A DNA stretch of 64,000 nt from Candidatus Mnemosynella biddleae (GTDB taxonomy: Archaea; Halobacteriota; Archaeoglobi; Mnemosynellales; Mnemosynellaceae): assembly GCA_002011165.2 (NCBI GenBank), contig MTMI02000009.1, positions 124,001-188,000 of the forward strand, given 5' to 3'. Position numbers and translations under genes: made by a program. The notes beneath the pieces are model-generated. The model had not been told where the DNA came from. It saw nothing but the letters and a program-made list of their open reading frames with translations, and ran no database searches. Every line of letters begins with the position of its first letter. Positions within the stretch are counted from its first letter, which is position 1. Positions 5,753-32,002 of this stretch are shown piece by piece.

Positions 5753-7525
5753 TTATCTACCCCAGAAAGGATTTTTCTCCCTTTTAATTTTTAGCACCTC
5801 TCTAAAGACTTCAAGCTCATGATCCTCAAGAGCTTCCTGAAGATCTTGCTCTATTATCTTTGCATGTCTTTCTGGTATGTCCACGTATAAAATCTCTCCT
5901 TCTTTAATTTGTCTTCCGACAGTTGGACCGTCAATGGCTATTGCAACTTCTTTACCTCTTTCCGCAACACTTAGATTTTCGCCCCGATCCTGAATGCCTT
6001 TAACAACTCCAATTTTTATACCTTTTTCATTCATAAGTTCTGAGTTGTTGTGAAGATTTCCGCCAAGAACTCTTACTCCAACGATTGCAGGATTGCTCCT
6101 TCTAAACACAAATCCGGGAAGAATCATGATCTTGGCAGGTCTGGCAATTATTTCAAGCTTTCTCTTCTCACTCTCGCTTTTGAGTTTCTCCACCCATCCT
6201 ACATACTCATCTACTAAATTGTATATCACGTTTCCCGTAAATATTCTGACTTTCTCCTGAGAAGCTATCTCCTTCGCATCCTGGGTTACCTTCACATTGA
6301 ACCCTATGACGCATCTGTAGACTTCATTTTCCATCGTCGCTGCTTCCATTACATCGGACTTCGTGATATCACCAACATCAGCCTTTCTCACGGAAATTTT
6401 ATTTTCTCTGAGTTCTCCGAGAAGTGCTTCGAGCGAGCCAAGAGTATCCGCCTTTATGATAACTCCCTCGAGATCAGTAGAAATTCTAACTTCGCCAATT
6501 GCAAATTTTATTTCCTCCAGAACTTTCTCTAGCCCTTCTTCAGGAGCGACCCTCAACGGAGATCCCGCTAAAGCCCCCTCAAGCCCAGGAGCAACTATTT
6601 TAATTCCAGAAGCTGCAACAGCCTCTTCAACGTTCATGAATCTACTTTCAACCCTCATCTCCCTCAGAGGTCTGGGTTTGAGGAGTGCCCTTACTTTGGT
6701 AACGATAGGTTCTTTAATGCCTCCGAGAACTACAAGGTCTCCGACCCTTATAACTCCATCATATATTACCGCATCCACTGTTGTTCCGAAACCTCTCTCT
6801 TCCTTGACTTCAAGAACTGTACCCATAGCAGGCCCATCGACATGGAGTTTTAGTTCGTTTTCGAGAAATCTCTGTGCTAGTCCCATGATAACCATTAGGA
6901 GATCCGGAACACCTTCTCCGGTAAGGGCGCTAATGGGAATTATACTGATATTCCTCGTGAAATCACGAATTCTGTCATATCTCTCCGAGCTGAATCCATG
7001 AGAATAGAGAGACTCAACAAGCTTGTAGATTCTCTCCTCGAGTTCTCTCCGAGCGCTCTCACTCTGATTCTTCAAACTTTCGGGGAACATTTCCCAACTC
7101 TGAGATTTCCAGCCCGGAATTTTATCTATCTTATTTGCAGCAACCACAAATGGAGTCTTAAAACGTCTGAGAATATTGATGGCTTCGACAGTTTGCGGTT
7201 TGAAACCCTCATTAATGTCAACGACAAGAATAGCAAGATCTGCAAGAGCCCCTCCACGTTCTCTCAGAGAGGTAAAAGCATGATGTCCTGGTGTGTCAAT
7301 GAAAAGAAGTCCTGGAACTCTAGTTTTTTCGATGAGAGGAGACTTACATACCTTTTTAATGACTTCAAGAGGGACCTCAGTTGCTCCGATATGCTGTGTG
7401 ATCCCTCCAGCCTCTCTTCTCGCTACTGTAGTACCACGTATTGTATCCAATAGAGTGGTCTTTCCGTGATCCACATGCCCGAGAACGCTGACTATAGGGG
7501 TCCTGAGCCTTTTTTCCTCACTCAT
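5753..7525 (-). CDS. infB: translation initiation factor aIF5B (IF-2 type GTPase)
   Basis: Promotes ribosomal subunit joining. The GTPase motifs are clear: GHVDHGKTT (G1), DTPGHHAF (G3) and NKID (G4), followed by domain II ([23 protein letters not shown]) and the C-terminal domains expected of archaeal aIF5B, with about 590 residues in all. Two starts are open: ATG at 7540 and ATG at 7525. The latter gives [21 protein letters not shown] and a smaller overlap with ndk, so I use it. It is co-transcribed with ndk upstream and S6e downstream. Confidence 0.96.
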
Positions 7526-7967
7526 ACAACCATTCTTCATCTATTCTTTTATACTCGACGATCTCATCCTCAGAGAAGTAAAGAGAGATTTCTCTTTCAG
7601 CAGAGGAGAGCGAATCAGATGCATGAACAACATTTCTACCTATCTCGACTCCGAGATCTCCTCTTATAGTTCCGGGAGATGCTTCTAATGGATTTGTCGC
7701 TCCAATCATCTTTCTGACGATTTGAACTGCATTTTTACCTTCAATAACCATTGCAACGACAGGAGATGAAGTGATATATGAAATGAGAGGTTCGTAAAAC
7801 TCTTTTCCCCTGTGTTCTTCGTAGTGCTTCTCTGCGAGCTCTCTGGAAATTCGAAGCATCTTCATTCCAACGATCTTCAGACCTTTCTGCTCAACTCTTC
7901 TGATGACTTCTCCAATAAGTCCTCTTTGGACTCCATCCGGCTTGATCATCAAAAAGGTTCGCTCCAT
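7518..7967 (-). CDS. ndk: nucleoside diphosphate kinase
   Basis: Transfers the gamma-phosphate of ATP to NDPs through a phosphohistidine. The N-terminal [19 protein letters not shown] and the active-site NVVHASDS (His near residue 114) are exact family hallmarks; 149 residues is full length. It sits between L24e and aIF5B, a linkage common in euryarchaea, and overlaps the aIF5B start. Confidence 0.97.
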
Positions 7968-7976
7968 GATTTTACC

Positions 7977-8147
7977 TCACTTCTTGGTTATCCACTTGAG
8001 TTTCCTTGGCAATCTTTTCAGTTCGAAGTTCTTCTCGCATTTAGAGGAGCAGAAATAATAAATTGTTCCATTCTTCATCACGAGCATCTTTCCGGTTCCG
8101 GGCTCAATCTCCTCGTTGCAGAAAGAGCATCTCCTGATCTCCACCAT
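7977..8147 (-). CDS. rpl24e: ribosomal protein L24e
   Basis: A 56-residue zinc-ribbon ribosomal protein of the large subunit, recovered by translating the minus strand between S28e and ndk. It reads [20 protein letters not shown] then continues through [16 protein letters not shown], with two CxxC/CxxxC pairs as zinc ligands, ending KWITKK. An alternative ATG two codons upstream (8153) overlaps the S28e stop; I use the one giving the usual MVEIRRC start. It is short but unambiguous. Confidence 0.94.
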
Positions 8148-8152
8148 ACCCA

Positions 8153-8365
8153 TCACCGCACAGTAAGTTTTCTTGCTTCACGAGCAGTTTCGAGAAGTAT
8201 CAGTATATCTCCAACCTTTACGGGTCCAAGAACATTTCTCGTAATAATTCTTCCCTTATTGCTACCTTCAAGAACTCTGCACTTCACCTGAGTTGCCTCT
8301 CCGTGCATCCCGGTTCTTCCTATTACCTCAACGACCTCCGCAGGAACTGCTTCGTCTTCAGGCAT
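8153..8365 (-). CDS. rps28e: ribosomal protein S28e
   Basis: A 70-residue small-subunit protein. The sequence [20 protein letters not shown] and [27 protein letters not shown], ending RKLTVR, is diagnostic of S28e, which has an OB-like fold near the mRNA exit. It is the second gene of the L7Ae operon, 21 bases after L7Ae, and overlaps the alternative L24e start. Confidence 0.97.
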
Positions 8366-10599: not shown

Positions 10600-12254
10600 G
10601 CAAAGCAAACCTGTAGAATTCCGTCTTCGAATTTTTCAACTTTCCCAAATCCAAATCTCTCGAACTGAACAATTTTTCCGATTTCTTTAATAACTCCTCT
10701 TTCGGAGATTCCTTCGTAAACTCCTTCTGGAGCTAAAACTATCGTTTTAACTCCGTCTGGGGGGGCCCAGTGGATTATTCTATAGCCTTTTACATCCTTT
10801 CCTTCATATTTAGCTTCAAGCGGAGAGAGACTTGTGATCTGAACATTACAGAGATCTTTTAATCTCACAAAATCTCCGACTTTTATCTCTTTAAAGTCGC
10901 TCTCCGCTATGAAAACCTCTCCTTCAACCTCGATCTCTCTGAATCCCATATCTCTTTTTGGATGAAGTGGTGCTCTTGCGAGCATCTTAGATGGGCCCTC
11001 TTTTATAATCATCTTTTTTGGGTTGTGAACAAAGAAATAACGCTTAGCAACTGGATCTATGATCTTTCTGTTTTCCGCATACAGATTCTCCATGCTTATG
11101 CTCACATCATTCTCTCCAATACCAAGAGAAATGAAGAAATTCCTGAGAGCCTCCGCAGTAATTCCTCTCCTTTTCAAAGCCCTTAACGTCGGCAATCTAA
11201 CATCATCCCATCCACTGTAAACTCTTTCCTCGATCCCTTTAGCTATCATACTTGTACTCAGCTTTCCAAACTCGTGGATCTTCAACCTTCCCCAGTAAAT
11301 CGTTTTCGGATACTCCCACTCGAAATATGAATAAATATATCTTTGTCTAGCTTCGCTATCCCTTAAATCCTTACCTCTGATGATGTGGGTGACACCCTGA
11401 AGATAATCCTCAATTGCCGATTCGAAATCGAGAGTTGGCCAGACTCTGAAGCGATCTCCGACTCTCGGATGAGGAACTTCAATTATTCTGAAGGCCACCC
11501 AATCTCTGACCGCAGGATCGGGATGTTTCATATCTGTTTTTATCCTGAGAACTGCTTCTCCTGAAGAGAGTTCTCCAGAGAGCATTTTATCCCAGAGTTC
11601 CAAACTTACCTCAGGAGTGCTCTCCCTATGAGGACAGCTCACAGAATTGTCCTTAAATTTCTTGAACTCCTCTCTCGAACACAGGCAAACGTATGCAAAG
11701 CCCATTTCAATGAGTTTCTCCGCATACTCGTAGTAAATTGGGATTCTCTCGGATGCACAAAGTATGACATCTGGTTTATACCCGAGCCACTCATAATCTT
11801 CGAGATACCAATCGTAAGCTTCCAAGAGCGGGCGCTTCGTCTTTGGATCTGTATCGTCGAACCTGAGGATGAGTGTTCCTTTATGCATTTTTGCGTATTC
11901 TCCATTTATCACCATCCCTCTCGCACTTCCGAGCGTTGGAGGCCCATTGGGATTGGGAGCAAATCTCATGACTGGATGATCCGAATCTAGAGGAGGTAGG
12001 CCTCCAGCCTTTTTCTCCTTCTTTCTCTCCAAAAGCTCTGGAGCCATATTCTTCAGAAGCTCCTCTCTTTCCTCATTTGAAAGAGAGTTCACATATGAGA
12101 TGATTTCATTAAAAACGTTCATGAGATCTCTTATCGAACTTCTCAGCTCAGGTGCCTCTGCAATGACCTTCCCTATAACTGCACCTCTTTCAGCTTTTCC
12201 ATACTTCAGAGCATTTGCAAGCGCATGTTTAAGGATGAGTTCTCTGATGCTCAT
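10590..12254 (-). CDS. gltX: glutamyl-tRNA synthetase (archaeal GluRS type)
   Basis: Charges tRNA-Glu, and probably tRNA-Gln, for later amidation. The class I signature appears as FAPNPNGPPTLGSARGMVI (HIGH variant), and the KMSKS-like loop as GKLSTSMI near residue 345; the long N-terminal extension and beta-barrel anticodon domain are as in archaeal GluRS, about 554 residues. The ATG at 12254 has GAGGAG six bases upstream and overlaps the GGPP synthase stop (TGATG), so it is translationally coupled as the last gene of the long operon. Confidence 0.96.
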   Translation of the reverse strand: MSIRELILKHALANALKYGKAERGAVIGKVIAEAPELRSSIRDLMNVFNEIISYVNSLSNEEREELLKNMAPELLERKKEKKAGGLPPLDSDHPVMRFAPNPNGPPTLGSARGMVINGEYAKMHKGTLILRFDDTDPKTKRPLLEAYDWYLEDYEWLGYKPDVILCASERIPIYYEYAEKLIEMGFAYVCLCSREEFKKFKDNSVSCPHRESTPEVSLELWDKMLSGELSSGEAVLRIKTDMKHPDPAVRDWVAFRIIEVPHPRVGDRFRVWPTLDFESAIEDYLQGVTHIIRGKDLRDSEARQRYIYSYFEWEYPKTIYWGRLKIHEFGKLSTSMIAKGIEERVYSGWDDVRLPTLRALKRRGITAEALRNFFISLGIGENDVSISMENLYAENRKIIDPVAKRYFFVHNPKKMIIKEGPSKMLARAPLHPKRDMGFREIEVEGEVFIAESDFKEIKVGDFVRLKDLCNVQITSLSPLEAKYEGKDVKGYRIIHWAPPDGVKTIVLAPEGVYEGISERGVIKEIGKIVQFERFGFGKVEKFEDGILQVCFAHR

Positions 12255-13210
12255 CAATAACTCCTCTTTATCATGAAATCAGCAAGTTCAAGCAAGATTT
12301 TCTTAGTTTTGCAATCAGGAAAGATTTCAAGAGCTTTTTTACCTCTTTCCACATATTCTTCCGCTCTTCTTATCGCATAATCCATGATCCCGAAATTCTT
12401 GAGAATTTCCACAATCTCTTCTACGCTATCTTCATCCCTCTTTCTTACTTCGGGGAGCTCCACTCCAAGCTCTCTTGCTCGAATGACGAGCATAGTTTTT
12501 TTACCTTCCGCAATGTCGCTTCCCCTATCTTTACCGATCTCTTCGCCCTTTCCAATAAGATCTAGAATATCATCGTAAATCTGAAAACCTATTCCGACAT
12601 TTCTTCCGTAGCTTCCGAGTGCTTTTATCTCCTCTTCTTCTCCTCCTCCAATCACACCACCAAGCATTGCACTAGCTTCGTAAAGAGCTCCAGTCTTTTT
12701 TCCAACCATCTCCAGATACTCATCCTCAGAGACGTTCTCTCTCTTTTCAAATTCCATATCCATCCACTGTCCCTCACAGATTTCAACACAAGCTTTGGAG
12801 AGGATTTCCACTGCCCTGACAACTCTCTCCGGAGGAGCTCTCGAAGAAGAGAGAATCTCAAAAGAGAGGGCATGAAGCGTATCTCCTGCAAGAATCGCAT
12901 AAGGAACTCCCCAAAGAGAATGCACGGTGGGAATCCCCCTCCTCATCTCGTCTTCATCCATAATGTCATCGTGTATTAATGTGAAGTTGTGAAGAAGTTC
13001 CACTGCAATGGCTGCCGAAATCGCATCCTCGCTTTTGCCTCCAACGAGTTCCGCTGTGAGAAGAACTGTAACAGGTCTGAGTCTCTTACCTCCTGCTTTA
13101 AGTAGATGAATTGATGCTTCGTAAAGCTCCTCAGGTTTACCTTTATGAATGATCTCCTTTAAAGCGGATTCCACAAGTTCTTTTCTTTTTCTCAACTCAT
13201 TTTCGAGCAT
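12254..13210 (-). CDS. idsA: geranylgeranyl/geranylfarnesyl diphosphate synthase
   Basis: A trans-isoprenyl diphosphate synthase making the C20 (or longer) chain for archaeal ether lipids. Both Asp-rich motifs are present: LIHDDIMDEDEMRRG (first DDxxD) near residue 82 and YDDILD (second) near residue 212, with GGKRLRP near the N-terminus. The start at ATG 13210 is preceded by GAGGTGA; the longer GTG start at 13219 would destroy that spacing. It follows RNase J and precedes GluRS. Confidence 0.94.
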   Translation of the reverse strand: MLENELRKRKELVESALKEIIHKGKPEELYEASIHLLKAGGKRLRPVTVLLTAELVGGKSEDAISAAIAVELLHNFTLIHDDIMDEDEMRRGIPTVHSLWGVPYAILAGDTLHALSFEILSSSRAPPERVVRAVEILSKACVEICEGQWMDMEFEKRENVSEDEYLEMVGKKTGALYEASAMLGGVIGGGEEEEIKALGSYGRNVGIGFQIYDDILDLIGKGEEIGKDRGSDIAEGKKTMLVIRARELGVELPEVRKRDEDSVEEIVEILKNFGIMDYAIRRAEEYVERGKKALEIFPDCKTKKILLELADFMIKRSY

Positions 13211-25187: not shown

Positions 25188-26462
25188 ATGATTGTTAAAA
25201 TGAGTTACGGAAAGGAGGAGATTCCAGTAGAGCTTCCAGATGAAAACGTAATCTGGGAACTTTACCCAAATGATCTTCCTCCAGTGGAAGATGAAGAAAA
25301 GGCGATAAAAGATGCTCTGGAAAATCCGATAGGGACAAAGAGGCTCAGAGATCTTGTTAGAAGAGGTATGAAAATTGTGATAATTGCAGATGATCTAACA
25401 AGACCGACACCGAGAAAGAGAATCATACCGATTCTTCTGAACGAGCTAAACGAAATAGGAATACCTGACGAGGATATAACTGTGCTCATAGCTCTCGGAA
25501 CTCACAGATATATGACCGAAGAGGAGATTCTCGAAAACTTCGGGGAAGAAGTGGTTAGAAGGGTTAGAATCATAAATCACGAATGGAAGGATGAAAAGAA
25601 TTTGATTTATCTTGGAGAGACCGAAAATGGAACTCCCGTAACAATAAACAGAGTTGCCTATGAAGCAGATTTCCTGATTGCCCTTGGGAGCATAGTTCCT
25701 CATTGTTTTGCGGGTTTCGGTGGAGGAGCAAAGATGATTCAGCCAGGAATCTGCGGATGGGATACAACCGCCGCAACGCATCTTCTTCTTTTTGAAGATG
25801 ATGAAAGAGTTTTGGAATACTCAGGGACGACAAAAAATAAAATTATGGAAGAGATGAGAGCTGTTGCAAAAAAAGCAGGTTTGAACTTCATAGTTAATGT
25901 TGTTTTCAACAGCAAAAAGGAACTCGTGAAGGTTGTCGCGGGAGATTTCGTAAAGGCTCATGATGCGGGAATAGAAGTTTCAAAGGAGATTTTCGTTAGA
26001 GAGATTGAAGAAAGAGCTGATATAGTCGTAGCCGATGCTCATCCAACCGAGATAGATCTCTGGCAAGGAGGAAAACCACTAACCTATGCGAGAAGAGCTG
26101 TGAAAGACGGAGGAACTCTCATCTTTTTGATTCCCGCTCCCGATGGAGTCTCGCCAACTCATCCAATTGTTTCAGAATGGGCTCATCTGAATTACAAAGA
26201 GATAAAAAGAAGGGTGAGAGAAGAGGAAGTGGAGGACAAAGTTGGATGTTCTGTACTCATGCTGATAAAGAAGGCAACTGAAGGGATAGATGTCATTGTT
26301 GTTTCAGATGGATTGACAAAAGAAATAAAAGAGAAGTTCGGCTTTATCCATGCTGAAAACGTTGAAGAAGCTTTGAAAATTGCATTCGAGAAACACGGAA
26401 AAAATGCAAAAATTGGAATAATTCATCATGGGGGAGATGTTTTACCTCTTTATAAGGGGTGA
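25188..26462 (+). CDS. larA: LarA-family (DUF2088) racemase-like protein
   Basis: A nickel-pincer racemase family protein related to lactate racemase LarA. Family elements are IADDLTRPTPRKRIIP near residue 66, LIALGTHRYMTEEE with its catalytic-type His, IGSIVPHCFAGFGGGAKMI-like segment at about residue 165, and HPTEIDLWQGGKPL in the C-terminal domain. Family members racemise or epimerise 2-hydroxyacids, but known ones cover several substrates and LarA-like proteins in archaea are mostly untested. The neighbours (MtaA-like and UxaA-like) suggest a hydroxyacid other than lactate. No larB/C/E maturation genes are visible in this window. Confidence 0.85.
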   Translation: MIVKMSYGKEEIPVELPDENVIWELYPNDLPPVEDEEKAIKDALENPIGTKRLRDLVRRGMKIVIIADDLTRPTPRKRIIPILLNELNEIGIPDEDITVLIALGTHRYMTEEEILENFGEEVVRRVRIINHEWKDEKNLIYLGETENGTPVTINRVAYEADFLIALGSIVPHCFAGFGGGAKMIQPGICGWDTTAATHLLLFEDDERVLEYSGTTKNKIMEEMRAVAKKAGLNFIVNVVFNSKKELVKVVAGDFVKAHDAGIEVSKEIFVREIEERADIVVADAHPTEIDLWQGGKPLTYARRAVKDGGTLIFLIPAPDGVSPTHPIVSEWAHLNYKEIKRRVREEEVEDKVGCSVLMLIKKATEGIDVIVVSDGLTKEIKEKFGFIHAENVEEALKIAFEKHGKNAKIGIIHHGGDVLPLYKG

Positions 26463-26470
26463 GGAGAGAA

Positions 26471-27499
26471 ATGGAAGAAGTTGAGGAGTGGATGAGTCCG
26501 AGAAAAAGATTTCTTTCCGCAATGTTCTCTGGGAGAGTGGATAGAAGAGCTGTTGGAAGTGCAACCTCTGTTGCAACGATAGAACAGATGGAGAAGACCG
26601 GAGCATATTTTCCAGAAGCTCATACAGATGCGAAAAAAATGGCAAAGTTATCTGCTGCTGCTTACGAGATTCTTGGATATGATTGTATCATGCCCTACTT
26701 CAGCGTTTGGATAGAAGCTGACGCCCTGGGAGCAGAAGTTGACTGGGGTACTGAGGAGAAGATGCCAGATGGAACGAAGACAGTGTTTAACGATCCTGAA
26801 GAGGTAACAATACCGGAGGATTTTCTTGAAAGAAAAGCCACAAGAGCTGTATTAGATGCCATAGAGATTTTGAAGAAAGAATATGGAGATTATGTGGCAA
26901 TTGTCGGAAAGGTGATGGGCCCATGGACTCTAGCATATCATGTTTGGGGAGTGAAGAATACGCTTATGAATGTGAGGCTCAATCCCGATAAGCTTCACAG
27001 ATTTCTCGATGCCCTCATGCCAGTGACAGTAGAATTCGGAAAAGCTCAGATTGAAGCTGGTATAGATGTTCTCATGCTTGCAGACCACGCAACTGGAGAT
27101 CTCGTTAGCGGAAAGACCTATAAAGAATTCCTCTTTGAGAGGCATAGAAAACTCACAAGAGAACTTAAAGTTCCGATGGTTCTTCACATATGTGGAGATA
27201 CGTTAGATAGAATGGACTATATTGCTCAAACAGGATTTGACTGCTTCCATTTTGATTCGAAAGTGGATGCATTTAAAGCAAAGGATGTTTGCGGAAAGAG
27301 GATTTCACTGATGGGCAATATTAACAACCCACAAACACTCCTCTACGGGACTCCTGAAGATGTCGAGAAAGAAGCAGACTACGCTGCAAGAGCTGGAGTA
27401 GAAATTCTTGCCCCAGAATGTGCGATACCAACGAGAGTTAAAGACGAAAATCTCAAAGCAATTGTAAGGGTGGCGAGAAGATATCCCGGAGTCGGTTGA
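26471..27499 (+). CDS. MtaA/CmuA-type methyltransferase (uroporphyrinogen decarboxylase superfamily)
   Basis: A zinc-dependent methylcobamide:thiol methyltransferase-like protein. Zinc ligands are recognisable as LHICGDT (His-x-Cys near residue 236) and APECAIPT (Cys near residue 316), the arrangement of MtaA/MtbA, and the start MSPRKRFLSAMFSGRVDR is typical. Such enzymes move a methyl group from a corrinoid to coenzyme M or another thiol. No corrinoid protein or substrate-specific MtxB is nearby, so the methyl donor is unknown. The ATG at 26471 follows a GAGGAGAG site; a GTG at 26459 overlaps the larA stop and would also work. Confidence 0.8.
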   Translation: MEEVEEWMSPRKRFLSAMFSGRVDRRAVGSATSVATIEQMEKTGAYFPEAHTDAKKMAKLSAAAYEILGYDCIMPYFSVWIEADALGAEVDWGTEEKMPDGTKTVFNDPEEVTIPEDFLERKATRAVLDAIEILKKEYGDYVAIVGKVMGPWTLAYHVWGVKNTLMNVRLNPDKLHRFLDALMPVTVEFGKAQIEAGIDVLMLADHATGDLVSGKTYKEFLFERHRKLTRELKVPMVLHICGDTLDRMDYIAQTGFDCFHFDSKVDAFKAKDVCGKRISLMGNINNPQTLLYGTPEDVEKEADYAARAGVEILAPECAIPTRVKDENLKAIVRVARRYPGVG

Positions 27500-27512
27500 G
27501 AAAGGTGAGAGG

Positions 27513-27803
27513 ATGAGAATAAAGGCAATCAAGATGAACGAAAAGGACAATGTGGCGACAGCAATAGATGACATTGAAAGTGGAGAGGTTATTGGAGTTA
27601 AGAACGAAGAGACTTTTGAAATTCAGGTTCTTCAGAGGATTCCCTTCGGACATAAAATTGCACTAAAGGATATTTCGAGAGGAGAGAACATAATAAAGTA
27701 CGGTGAAGTTATAGGAAGAGCAACAGAAGATATCAAAAAAGGAGAACATGTCCACGTTCATAATGTCGAGAGTTTAAGGGGGCGTGGAGATCTCAGAAAA
27801 TGA
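27513..27803 (+). CDS. UxaA/SuyA-like small subunit, SAF domain
   Basis: A 96-residue SAF-domain protein corresponding to the N-terminal part of altronate dehydratase UxaA or to SuyA of (R)-sulfolactate sulfo-lyase. The segments IPFGHKIALKDISRGE, IIKYGEVIGRATEDIKKGEH and VHVHNVESLRGRGD are family-diagnostic. In the split forms it works as a complex with the large subunit encoded next. It overlaps the large subunit gene by 20 bases. Confidence 0.88.
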   Translation: MRIKAIKMNEKDNVATAIDDIESGEVIGVKNEETFEIQVLQRIPFGHKIALKDISRGENIIKYGEVIGRATEDIKKGEHVHVHNVESLRGRGDLRK

Positions 27804-28953
27804 ATTTTTCGGATATGAAAGAGAAGAAGGAGTGGGCACAAGGAATTATGTTGCTATTCTTCCTTCAGTTGTCTGTGCAAACGAAGTGGCGAGAATAATA
27901 GAAGAGAGAGTGGAAAATTCAAGGGCATTTCTCCATCACCAAGGATGTATCCAACTCGGAAAAGATCTAGAAATGACTTTTAGAGCTCTCGTAGGTTTTG
28001 GAAGAAATCCAAATTGTCATTCGGTTCTCGTAGTTTCTCTTGGGTGTGAAGCAATAGATGCCGAAAAACTTGCGGATGAAATAGCAAAAAGTGGAAAAAG
28101 AGTTGAACTTGTCAGAATTCAAGAGGAGGGAGGGACGCTCAAAGCAATAGAAAAAGGTGTGAGAATAGTAAGAAAAATGGCTGAAGAAGCTGGAAAGGAA
28201 AAAAGAAGATCATTTGATGTTTCTGAATTAACAGTTGGAATAAAATGCGGTGCTTCTGATACAACTTCTGGAATAGCTTCAAATCCTGTAACAGGTTACG
28301 CTGCAGATCTGCTCGTTGAAAGAGGAGCAAGAGTGATTATTGGTGAGACAACAGAGATTATTGGAGCGGAACACATCTTAGCCAAGAGAGCAAAAGATAA
28401 GGAAGTGGCGAAAAAACTTCTTGAAGCTGTTCAGATGATGGAAAGGGAAGCAGAGAAAATGGGTGTAGACCTCAGAGGTTCTCAGCCTACTCCCGGAAAT
28501 ATAAAAGGAGGTCTTACAACAATTGAGGAGAAATCCCTTGGAGCTATTCTAAAAGGAGGTACTTCTGAGCTTCGAGAGGTAATAGAATATGCAGAGATTC
28601 CAAAAGAGAGAGGTCTTATTGTTATGAACTCTCCTGGAAGAGAGGTAGAGGTTGTTTCCGGATTTATGGCATCCGGAGCACAACTTGTTGTATTCTCAAC
28701 GGGTCTAGGAGCTCCCTTTGGTCTTCCAGTCGTTCCGGTCATGAAAGTAACTGGAAATCCGAGAACAGCACTCGAGAAAGCGGATGATATAGATGTGGAT
28801 GTCTCGCGAATCCTCAGAGGAGAAGAAAGTATCCAAGAGGCAGGAAAAAGAATCTACAATGAAATTCTTGAAGTTTCATCCGGAAAACCTGTTAAAGCTG
28901 AGATTCTGGGCTACAGATTCGTTGATATCTGGCGGATAGGACCAACACTCTAA
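27784..28953 (+). CDS. UxaA/SuyB-like large subunit (sugar-acid dehydratase or sulfolactate lyase)
   Basis: A 389-residue protein of the UxaA C-terminal family, which eliminates water or sulfite from hydroxyacids. Conserved parts are GTRNYVAILPSVVCANEVA, HHQGCIQLGKDLEMTFRALV, VSLGCEAID, GIKCGASDTTSGIASNP and GNIKGGLTTIEEKS; conserved cysteines likely bind metal or an Fe-S cluster. The GTG start lies inside the small-subunit gene. Galactarate, altronate and sulfolactate are known substrates of relatives; which applies here is unknown. Confidence 0.85.
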   Translation: MEISENEFFGYEREEGVGTRNYVAILPSVVCANEVARIIEERVENSRAFLHHQGCIQLGKDLEMTFRALVGFGRNPNCHSVLVVSLGCEAIDAEKLADEIAKSGKRVELVRIQEEGGTLKAIEKGVRIVRKMAEEAGKEKRRSFDVSELTVGIKCGASDTTSGIASNPVTGYAADLLVERGARVIIGETTEIIGAEHILAKRAKDKEVAKKLLEAVQMMEREAEKMGVDLRGSQPTPGNIKGGLTTIEEKSLGAILKGGTSELREVIEYAEIPKERGLIVMNSPGREVEVVSGFMASGAQLVVFSTGLGAPFGLPVVPVMKVTGNPRTALEKADDIDVDVSRILRGEESIQEAGKRIYNEILEVSSGKPVKAEILGYRFVDIWRIGPTL

Positions 28954-29024: not shown

Positions 29025-30110
29025 GTGAGTAAAGTGAAGAAATTTAAGTATCTCTCGATTCAGACTTCAAATGAGGTTGTAGAGGTTCCAATTTATAATG
29101 CATCCTCTAGAGGAGAGTCATTTCCCCTTCACAAAACGTTGGTTTCCAACTTCTGCAGAAACAACTGCAAATATTGTGCGTTTAGGAAAGAAAGAAGAAT
29201 CAGAAGAGAGGAGATTGCTCCAGAAGAACTTGCAAAAATCTCATATTACTTGTGGAGAAAGGGAGTGATAAAAGGGGTTTTTTACTCCTCGTCAATAAGA
29301 GATCCAGAAGAGGATTCTGAAAGAGTTGTTCGAACTGCAGAGTATCTGAGAGCCCTCGGATATTCTGGATATATTCATCTTAAACTTATGCCTGGATGTT
29401 CAAAAGACGTCATAAGAAGGGCCTGTAAAGTTGCAGATAGAGCAGGGTTTAATGTCGAGAGCTCTCCCGGATTTTTTGAAGATCTCTGCCCGGATATTGA
29501 TCTGAAGAGAGATATTCTGAAGAGATTTAAATGGATGAGAGAAGAAATGAAGAAATCTGAAAGAATGAAGAGCGGAATGGATACCCAATTCGTCCTCGGA
29601 GCTAATGAAGAGACCGACTACGAAGTAGCATCCTTTACCGAGATGCTATACAAAAAATTCGGATTGAGAAGAATCTACTATTCACCATTTAAACCCGTGA
29701 AGGATACTCCTCTGGAAAATAACCCTCCTTGTTCTAAAACTAGGGAGATCAGAATGTACCAACTCTCATTTCTTTTAAGAGACTACGGAATGAGTTTGAG
29801 AGATCTGGATATTTGTTTCGATGAGAGAGGATTCCTAAAAAATGGAGATCCGAAAAGAATTTACTTTGAAGAGTTTAAGGATGATATTCTCGTGGATCTC
29901 AAAGAAGCATCGATAAAAGATCTCATGAGACTTCCAGGAATAGGAATGAAGAGAGCGAGGAAGATAATAGAATGGAGGAGGAGAAGAGAAATTAGAGATT
30001 GGAGAGATTTCTCAAAAGCAAGCGGATTGAGTGATGAATGGAGAAGGATTTTGGAGCCTCACCTTGTTTTTGATGAGAGGCAAACTAGAATCCCGGAGTG
30101 GGTGAGATGA
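29025..30110 (+). CDS. radical SAM protein with C-terminal helix-hairpin-helix (putative DNA modification/repair)
   Basis: A radical SAM enzyme with CRNNCKYC near residue 45 as the [4Fe-4S] site, and a C-terminal helix-hairpin-helix DNA-binding motif LMRLPGIGMKRARKIIEW around residue 305. This resembles the TIGR03916-type 'putative DNA modification/repair radical SAM protein', which in bacteria is usually linked to a UDG-like partner. Here the partner gene instead encodes DUF763. The start is GTG, with a TATA-like element (CATATATTT) about 30 bases upstream, so the transcript may be leaderless. It overlaps DUF763 by 4 bases. Confidence 0.85.
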   Translation: MSKVKKFKYLSIQTSNEVVEVPIYNASSRGESFPLHKTLVSNFCRNNCKYCAFRKERRIRREEIAPEELAKISYYLWRKGVIKGVFYSSSIRDPEEDSERVVRTAEYLRALGYSGYIHLKLMPGCSKDVIRRACKVADRAGFNVESSPGFFEDLCPDIDLKRDILKRFKWMREEMKKSERMKSGMDTQFVLGANEETDYEVASFTEMLYKKFGLRRIYYSPFKPVKDTPLENNPPCSKTREIRMYQLSFLLRDYGMSLRDLDICFDERGFLKNGDPKRIYFEEFKDDILVDLKEASIKDLMRLPGIGMKRARKIIEWRRRREIRDWRDFSKASGLSDEWRRILEPHLVFDERQTRIPEWVR

Positions 30111-31162
30111 GGAGGAGCGGAGTTGCTGACCTACCGCTTCACTCTGGAAGGGCTCCGAAATGGCTCTTCGAAAGAATGGTAGAGTTAGCTGATGTTATAA
30201 CCGAGTTCATAGTGATTGAATATGGGGAAGATGAATTTATCAGAAGGATTTCTGATCCCTTCTGGTTTCAGGCTTTTTCTTGTGTTCTTGGATTCGATTG
30301 GCACTCCTCAGGAACGACCACAACCACAACAGGAGCATTGAAAGTCGCCCTTAAGCCAGAAAAGCACGGAATTGCTGTATGTGGAGGAAAAGGAAAAACC
30401 GCTCTGAAAACTCCAGAAGAGATTAAAAAGCTTCCAATGGATATCGAAACAGAAGAACTGATCAGAGTTTCGAGAATGACTGCAAAAGTTGATAATACGT
30501 GCCTTCAAGATGGATATTCGCTCTACCATCACACAATCTTCATCACTGAAAATAAATGGGCAGTGGTGCAACAAGGAATGAATGAGAAACACGCAAGAAG
30601 ATATCACTGGCTTTCAGAAAAGCTAGAGTCCTTTGTCAAAACTCCGCATTCTGGAATATCTGCCGAAAGGATTGAAGAGAGAGTTCTCGATATGACGTCA
30701 AACGAAAATGAGAGTCTAAGAAAGGCCTCTCTAGATGCAATCAGGGAATTCCCATCAATAGTTCGAGAAGTAAAAAGGTTGAAGATGCCATTCCACCACG
30801 AATTAAGAGAGATTGACCTAAGTGAGAGGAGCCTAAAAGTCCTTGAGAGGCTTTACGAGCTTCAACCATCCTCCTATGAAGAGATTGTGGAATTCAGAGG
30901 AGCTGGGCCGAAAACTATTAGAGCACTTGCCCTAGTTTCATCTCTGATCTATGGAGAAGAGATTTCATGGAGAGATCCGGCAAAATACAGCTACGCTCAC
31001 GGAGGAAAAGACGGGACTCCATATCCTGTTGATAAAAGAAATATGAAGAGGAGCGCCGAGATATTGAGAAGAGCAATTGAAGAATGTAAACTCGGAAAAA
31101 AAGAGAGAATTTTAGCTATAAAGAGACTAAGTGACTTCATGCGTAGCCTCGAACATGATTGA
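30107..31162 (+). CDS. DUF763 family protein
   Basis: A DUF763 protein. MRRSGVADLPLHSGRAPKWL, SCVLGFDWHSSGTTTTTTGAL-like segment near residue 73, VCGGKGKTALKTPEEI and SYAHGGKDGTPYPVD are conserved landmarks. A possible helix-hairpin-helix (YEEIVEFRGAGPKTIRALAL) lies around residue 265, which hints at nucleic acid binding. The family has no established function. I start at ATG 30107, which overlaps the radical SAM stop (ATGA), giving tight translational coupling. The 3' end overlaps moaB on the opposite strand by 26 bases. Confidence 0.9.
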   Translation: MRRSGVADLPLHSGRAPKWLFERMVELADVITEFIVIEYGEDEFIRRISDPFWFQAFSCVLGFDWHSSGTTTTTTGALKVALKPEKHGIAVCGGKGKTALKTPEEIKKLPMDIETEELIRVSRMTAKVDNTCLQDGYSLYHHTIFITENKWAVVQQGMNEKHARRYHWLSEKLESFVKTPHSGISAERIEERVLDMTSNENESLRKASLDAIREFPSIVREVKRLKMPFHHELREIDLSERSLKVLERLYELQPSSYEEIVEFRGAGPKTIRALALVSSLIYGEEISWRDPAKYSYAHGGKDGTPYPVDKRNMKRSAEILRRAIEECKLGKKERILAIKRLSDFMRSLEHD

Positions 31163-31652
31163 GGATGTGAGATGCCTCTTTTAGTATTAGCTCTTTCATC
31201 GCAAGTTCGACTGCACGAGGAGAACCCGGGATGCAGAAAATCACCTTCCCCTTTATTACACCTCCGGTTGCTCTGCTTAACATTGCGGAACTTCCAATTT
31301 CCTTCATGCTCAGAGCTCTGAAGAGCTCTCCAAACCCCTCTATTCTCTTCTCAAAATAAGGAGATACAGTTTCAATCGTAATATCCTTTGGAGAGAGTCC
31401 TGTGCCACCGCAAAAGATGAGAAGATCGTCACCACTTTCCAAAAACTCCTGAAGCTCTCTCTTTATCTCATTCTCCTCATCAGGGATGAGAGAATAAGAG
31501 GAGAAACTCTTATCGAGGAGTTCTTTTATTATCCTTCCAGAAAGATCGTCTGCACTCTCTGGAGAGCTTACCCTTCCGAATTTTTCGAATCTGCTGGTAC
31601 TTACAACAACAATTCTCGCTTTGAAACTTCTCTCCTTTTTGTGCTCCTCCAA
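31137..31652 (-). CDS. moaB: MoaB/MogA-type molybdopterin adenylyltransferase
   Basis: Adenylylates molybdopterin in molybdenum/tungsten cofactor synthesis. The motif FCGGTGLSPKDITIETVSPY (about residues 80-99) and the SRATGGVIKGKVIFCIPGSP segment are characteristic. The start is TTG 31652 with GGAGG nine bases upstream, and lies inside the preceding gene (52-base overlap, other frame). It implies that Mo- or W-pterin enzymes exist in the organism. Confidence 0.92.
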   Translation of the reverse strand: MEEHKKERSFKARIVVVSTSRFEKFGRVSSPESADDLSGRIIKELLDKSFSSYSLIPDEENEIKRELQEFLESGDDLLIFCGGTGLSPKDITIETVSPYFEKRIEGFGELFRALSMKEIGSSAMLSRATGGVIKGKVIFCIPGSPRAVELAMKELILKEASHILNHVRGYA

Positions 31653-32002
31653 GAAATTGCCTCCTCCACAGGTCTCCTCTTTATGTCAGCGAGAGTGAAA
31701 GCATAGAAGTATATATGATCTTTCTTCGATAATCCCTCCCAAAGAGACTCATCCACGAGATCTTCTCCAAAATCTCTAACCAGATCCTCATAAGACGCGG
31801 ATTCGATCTTCTCTATTAAAATTGCGAAATTTTCAAATTTTCCTGTTTCGGTGTTCCTCACTCTATAAATCCCGGGATTATAGAAATACCGCGAAATAAA
31901 TGTACACTTTCCTCTCCGGAGTGCCTCCTTAATTCGGAAGGGATCGAGCTCAATAAAGTGAGCTATTCTCTCAAGCTCTGGTTGAGCGTATCTCAATTCC
32001 AC
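31601..32002 (-). CDS. hypothetical protein, 133 aa, overlapping moaB
   Basis: I do not recognise this family. The protein is 133 residues, soluble, with an N-terminal HFIELDPFRIKEALRRGKCT, a central strand-rich part (GIYRVRNTETGKFENFAILI) and a basic C-terminus. It overlaps the moaB gene by 52 bases and is probably co-transcribed with it. Start is GTG 32002 or TTG 31996. The overlap makes the exact C-terminus or the moaB start worth testing. Confidence 0.55.
   Translation of the reverse strand: MELRYAQPELERIAHFIELDPFRIKEALRRGKCTFISRYFYNPGIYRVRNTETGKFENFAILIEKIESASYEDLVRDFGEDLVDESLWEGLSKKDHIYFYAFTLADIKRRPVEEAISWRSTKRREVSKRELLL

Follow-up and report, generated by a model that had tools for sequence, protein, structure and literature searches.

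Do a radical SAM gene and a DUF763 gene that overlap by four bases in an archaeal genome encode the two parts of a dedicated DNA-processing machine, or did they come together locally, in one lineage? The question is posed by the window analysed here, a stretch of 64,000 nucleotides from the 1.5 Mb genome of Candidatus Mnemosynella biddleae (contig MTMI02000009.1, positions 124,001 to 188,000), in which the two genes lie in tandem on the forward strand (Table 1). The original prediction, made from the sequence, was that the pair may form a repair or modification module in which DUF763 replaces, or is an alternative to, the UDG-like partner known for this radical SAM family in bacteria. In our literature search DUF763 was met only in the domain lists of one 2005 paper, from archaea and plant-associated bacteria (PMC554113); the search found no study or experiment on its function, and nothing under COG1415 or TIGR03916.

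The gene arrangement itself is as first described. The radical SAM reading frame starts at a GTG (29025) and stops with the TGA at 30108-30110, over which the DUF763 ATG at 30107 is superimposed to give the four-base overlap. This ATG (MRRSGVADLPLH) is the best DUF763 start and agrees with the homologues, the default start of the open reading frame being a GTG at 30098. Because 4- or 1-base stop/start overlaps are possible in about 15 of the 48 same-strand neighbour pairs of the window, the overlap by itself is ordinary. On one side of the pair, positions 25188-28953 hold an apparent operon. Its genes encode a LarA-like lactate racemase (PF09861), a methyltransferase of the MtaA/CmuA type (PF01208) and, from two genes that overlap, the pieces of a divided UxaA-type dehydratase: a SAF-domain protein and the C-terminal part of a galactarate/altronate dehydratase. 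On the other side, the reverse strand encodes a 133-residue protein without a Pfam family (31601-32002), whose gene has a MoCF-domain (MoaB-like) gene and the RNase Z gene as its neighbours.

Table 1. Features of the radical SAM-DUF763 locus (positions are those of the window)
Feature	Position	Strand	Evidence
Radical SAM protein, 361 aa, C-terminal helix-hairpin-helix	29025..30110	+	ORF, PF04055, HHH_3, HHH, TIGR03916, tree
CxxxCxxC cluster-binding motif, radical SAM residues 44-51	29154..29177	+	Invariant, 44/44 aligned family members
Invariant Asp-Pro-Lys, radical SAM residues 275-277, directly N-terminal of helix-hairpin-helix	29847..29855	+	44/44 aligned members
Helix-hairpin-helix domain, radical SAM residues 289-338	29889..30038	+	PF12836 E 1.9e-7, PF00633 E 4.5e-7
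ATGA stop/start overlap of the two genes	30107..30110	+	Sequence; GGTGAG just 5' of ATG
DUF763 protein, 351 aa from ATG 30107 (354 aa from GTG 30098)	30107..31162	+	PF05559, whole profile spanned, 425.2 bits (gathering score 35.5)
Probable DUF763 helix-hairpin-helix, residues 257-286 (from GTG 30098), G268xG270 invariant	30866..30955	+	hhalign, AlphaFold, invariant columns
Conserved HGGKDGxPYPV loop, C-terminal of DUF763 helix-hairpin-helix; GGKD invariant	30998..31030	+	70-sequence alignment; low pLDDT in model

Radical SAM enzymes with a CxxxCxxC motif bind a 4Fe-4S cluster and generate a 5'-deoxyadenosyl radical from S-adenosylmethionine. The first protein of the pair matches PF04055 (Pfam, E 1e-8), and the motif that had been read in it is confirmed as C44xxxC48xxC51; the window protein retains all of the family-invariant residues, which in addition to these cysteines are N143, E145, T187, Q188, R216, R240 and D275-P-K. 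The predicted C-terminal helix-hairpin-helix is likewise recovered (HHH_3 and HHH profiles), and is present too in the homologues from loci L127 and L139. Against TIGR03916 (rSAM_link_UDG) the protein scores 183.8 bits, below the curated NCBIfam cut-off of 343.5, which is reached by no genome of our 247-genome sample of the phylum (Halobacteriota). Judged from sequence, it belongs, as a divergent member, with the 'DNA modification/repair radical SAM' proteins of TIGR03916/COG4277. With the operons typical of that group the locus shares the radical SAM core, the cysteine motif, the C-terminal helix-hairpin-helix and a downstream gene that overlaps or abuts and has a predicted DNA-metabolism product; it differs in its low score and in the downstream gene, which encodes DUF763 rather than DUF4130 (TIGR03915) or UdgX. 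A repair role for the radical SAM family would follow from the adjacency of UdgX or DUF4130 and from the prediction that in Bacteroidetes the COG1573-COG4277 operon is under SOS (LexA) control (PMC8565304). Spore photoproduct lyase, SplB, is also a radical SAM enzyme tied to DNA repair, but it belongs to another family and context; it is named here from the literature (PMC3765255, PMC8565304).

The DUF763 protein is a full-length member of PF05559 in which every invariant column is retained; its neighbour alone is unusual, DUF763 elsewhere having no fixed partner. The helix-hairpin-helix originally suggested for it falls below the Pfam cut-off (best E 0.019, in a rhizobial homologue), yet an hhalign comparison with the radical SAM helix-hairpin-helix gives a probability of 95.7 and, in the AlphaFold model, helices 260-265 and 271-285 flank the GxG, so that such a domain is probably present in DUF763 as well. 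Both proteins of the pair would thus carry the GxG helix-hairpin-helix of DNA-binding proteins such as ComEA, RuvA and the HhH-GPD glycosylases, and a weak profile contact of DUF763 is with the RuvA hairpin (E 1.2). The DUF763 core is without a detectable solved relative. HhH-GPD enzymes carry a catalytic aspartate after the helix-hairpin-helix and, in bifunctional members, a lysine. In DUF763 the position that corresponds to the lysine of the Nth-type enzymes varies (K, A or R at 272). An aspartate, D293, is more than 90% conserved, but its spacing differs and no fold match was found for the protein. Across 70 aligned DUF763 sequences the polar residues H15, D67, K98, D132, H145, Q158, Q159, R167, R168, K304 and D305 are invariant, a pattern that suggests an enzyme.

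Structural comparison was made with a model of good predicted quality (pLDDT 85 for the full protein and 87 for the core, residues 17-199). Foldseek returned no credible solved relative, the best E values being 0.75 (full) and 0.40 (core), and the best VIA-align scores lay within the unrelated background: Z 5.2 for the full model, involving the long C-terminal helix only, and Z 4.5 for the core (71 residues, rmsd 5.3, with frataxin CyaY). Sequence searches for solved relatives yielded none that was credible, a viral structure library contained no match, and neither Foldseek nor VIA-align found similarity to any repair enzyme fold. The absence of a fold match is not proof of a new fold.

Whether the pair is conserved can be read from its distribution. 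In the 247-genome phylum sample, with a threshold of E at most 1e-20 for the radical SAM family, DUF763 occurs in 97 genomes and the radical SAM family in 88. They coincide in 34, which is the level expected by chance: DUF763 is found in 34/88 genomes that have the radical SAM gene vs 63/159 that do not (Fisher p 0.89). This count of co-occurrence and adjacency had been set beforehand as the test of the proposed module, and its outcome speaks against it. By their coordinates, the two genes are adjacent in the window's own genome and in none of the 33 other phylum genomes that possess both. Eighty DUF763 loci of other archaea and of bacteria likewise show no radical SAM relative in the neighbourhood; 17 of 50 such genomes do have the radical SAM gene, at another place. 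A congeneric genome (G247) has no radical SAM match and, with its DUF763 gene truncated where a contig begins, weighs on neither side. We reject a conserved two-gene module, there being no co-occurrence beyond chance and adjacency in a single genome; with the genes together in one checked genome only, theirs is probably a local pairing and not a conserved machine. Among the other DUF763 genes, those at L189 (genome G006) and L118 run over two reading frames and look frameshifted or decayed, and genome G217 retains only a C-terminal fragment.

A local pairing might carry no functional meaning at all: shuffling could have set the radical SAM gene before a DUF763 gene with a role in RNA processing or other housekeeping, the overlap reflecting the compactness of these genomes. 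Several results agree with such an origin. DUF763 has no conserved neighbour over the 80 loci, gene overlaps are common in the window, and the family resembles no repair enzyme fold found; it is moreover widespread in archaea, Sulfolobus acidocaldarius among them, and near-universal in the class of this archaeon (43/44 sampled genomes, with varied neighbours). We nevertheless regard unrelated functions as somewhat unlikely, in view of the helix-hairpin-helix in both proteins and of base-repair genes that recur beside DUF763 in unrelated lineages, where it is the sole MGMT or Mpg copy of a genome or plasmid that adjoins.

Of 16 Rhizobiales plasmids with DUF763, four have an intact gene for the 3-methyladenine glycosylase Mpg, and in three of these it lies no more than 3.3 kb from DUF763. 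In Ensifer canadensis and Sinorhizobium fredii the two genes are direct neighbours; in Phyllobacterium the distance is 3.2 kb. The orientations differ (Mpg/DUF763 at 11159-11743, 12001-13260 in L229; at 7415-7828, 7965-9284 in L224; and at 12459-12989, 8007-9140 in L221). On a plasmid of Rhodopseudomonas sp. BAL398, AlkB and DUF763 overlap by one base (L043 5387-7257). Of six Aenigmatarchaeota, two have their sole MGMT-type gene directly upstream of DUF763 (L070 2349-2744; L110 2133-2435). In the L070 protein a CxxC...CxxC segment is present at the N-terminal end, and PCYKV stands where PCHRV is usual. An OGG-type glycosylase gene is upstream in a Woesearchaeote and a DNA polymerase I gene overlaps DUF763 downstream in a WOR-3 bacterium; in two rhizobia UdgX lies at a distance of 3-4 kb, and in three LigD or Ku is within 8 kb. 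Among about 170 immediate DUF763 neighbours, those with repair functions are MGMT (2), Mpg (1), OGG, AlkB and PolI, and many others are metabolic. A Poisson mean of about 1.2 repair neighbours would be expected, on a background rate that was guessed and serves as illustration only. Base-repair genes (Mpg, AlkB, MGMT-like, OGG) thus adjoin DUF763 more often than we expected, in a comparison for which the families were chosen after inspection and in which the stress islands of rhizobial plasmids cluster many stress genes. From these neighbours, a role of DUF763 in the repair of base damage, perhaps alkylation, is plausible; since most DUF763 genes lack such neighbours and the families were picked post hoc, we go no further than this.

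More specific is the idea that DUF763 functionally replaces DUF4130 or UdgX, the radical SAM enzyme modifying a lesion or base and DUF763, made in equimolar amounts through translational coupling, recognising or processing the product. The link between this radical SAM family and a UDG-like partner, part of the original prediction, is well founded in bacteria and methanogens. In records of bacterial plasmids, the next gene after the radical SAM gene encodes a TIGR03915 protein or a UdgX that includes a DUF4130 domain, and in the phylum sample DUF4130, a predicted mutagenesis-related enzyme (PMC3765255), occurs in 29/247 genomes and lies immediately 3' of the radical SAM gene in 29/29; these are exactly the 29 genomes with the top-scoring radical SAM genes. 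The other 59 radical SAM genes of the phylum are without DUF4130, and have no common neighbour where their surroundings were examined. The partner's absence, earlier noted for the visible sequence, extends to the whole genome of the window, in which neither a DUF4130 gene nor a PF03167 UDG-superfamily gene was found (13/14 control genomes were positive for the latter). Maximum-likelihood analysis places the radical SAM protein of the window as sister to the DUF4130-linked clade of methanogens, apart from the orphan clade of its own class. This placement is kept when the long-branch sequence L139 is omitted (bootstrap 99, SH-aLRT 91) and is moderate evidence, since the window's end branch is long. 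Read most economically, the radical SAM gene would be one of the DUF4130-linked type that has lost its partner and has come to precede DUF763. At L139, the locus of the nearest relative (5817-6956), a different radical SAM/SPASM gene (7045-8292) follows about 85 bases downstream.

DUF763 therefore occupies a vacant slot, with the same style of overlap as DUF4130 genes, and to that extent the original idea is supported. It is also rarer in the DUF4130 genomes of the phylum (1/29 vs 96/218, p=7.5e-6), an anticorrelation that follows taxonomy. Against replacement, the arrangement is confined to a single genome, in many genomes the radical SAM gene adjoins neither DUF4130 nor DUF763, and radical SAM, DUF4130 and DUF763 occur together in four genomes that do not belong to the phylum sample, DUF4130 keeping the slot. 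Nor is DUF763 a divergent DUF4130 (PF13566), a candidate that we rejected on an hhalign probability of 0.1 between the two alignments. With DUF763 unrelated to DUF4130 and coexisting with it, functional replacement is possible but unproven, and we judge it distinctly improbable. A phage or defence origin of DUF763 was dismissed, there being no PHROGs or PADLOC match and no occurrence in viral contigs or phage records.

The explanation that we prefer, with about even confidence, is that the pair forms a transcription unit peculiar to this lineage, rather than a conserved module, and that its products are co-expressed parts of the same general process. Both proteins would bind DNA through their helix-hairpin-helix domains; the radical SAM enzyme would alter a base by means of its iron-sulphur cluster and S-adenosylmethionine, and DUF763 would be an independent repair protein for base damage, perhaps alkylation. 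In this archaeon the coupling of the two genes may have brought DUF763 into joint expression with the radical SAM gene, so that the proteins would act as co-expressed members of one general process and not as an obligate complex. A bolder version, which we consider unlikely, sees in DUF763, a family widespread among archaea and patchily distributed in bacteria, unrecognised proteins for the repair of base damage (probably alkylation), whose core fold has yet to appear among solved structures; in this archaeon DUF763 would have taken the partner slot next to a radical SAM repair enzyme after the loss of DUF4130/UdgX.

The locus illustrates how a striking coupled gene pair in a single genome may fail a test of co-occurrence. 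If the repair reading is true, DUF763, conserved across much of the archaea, would represent a kind of base-repair protein that is new and open to testing, and the SOS-linked UdgX/DUF4130 operon would be one whose radical SAM enzymes have an alternative partner.
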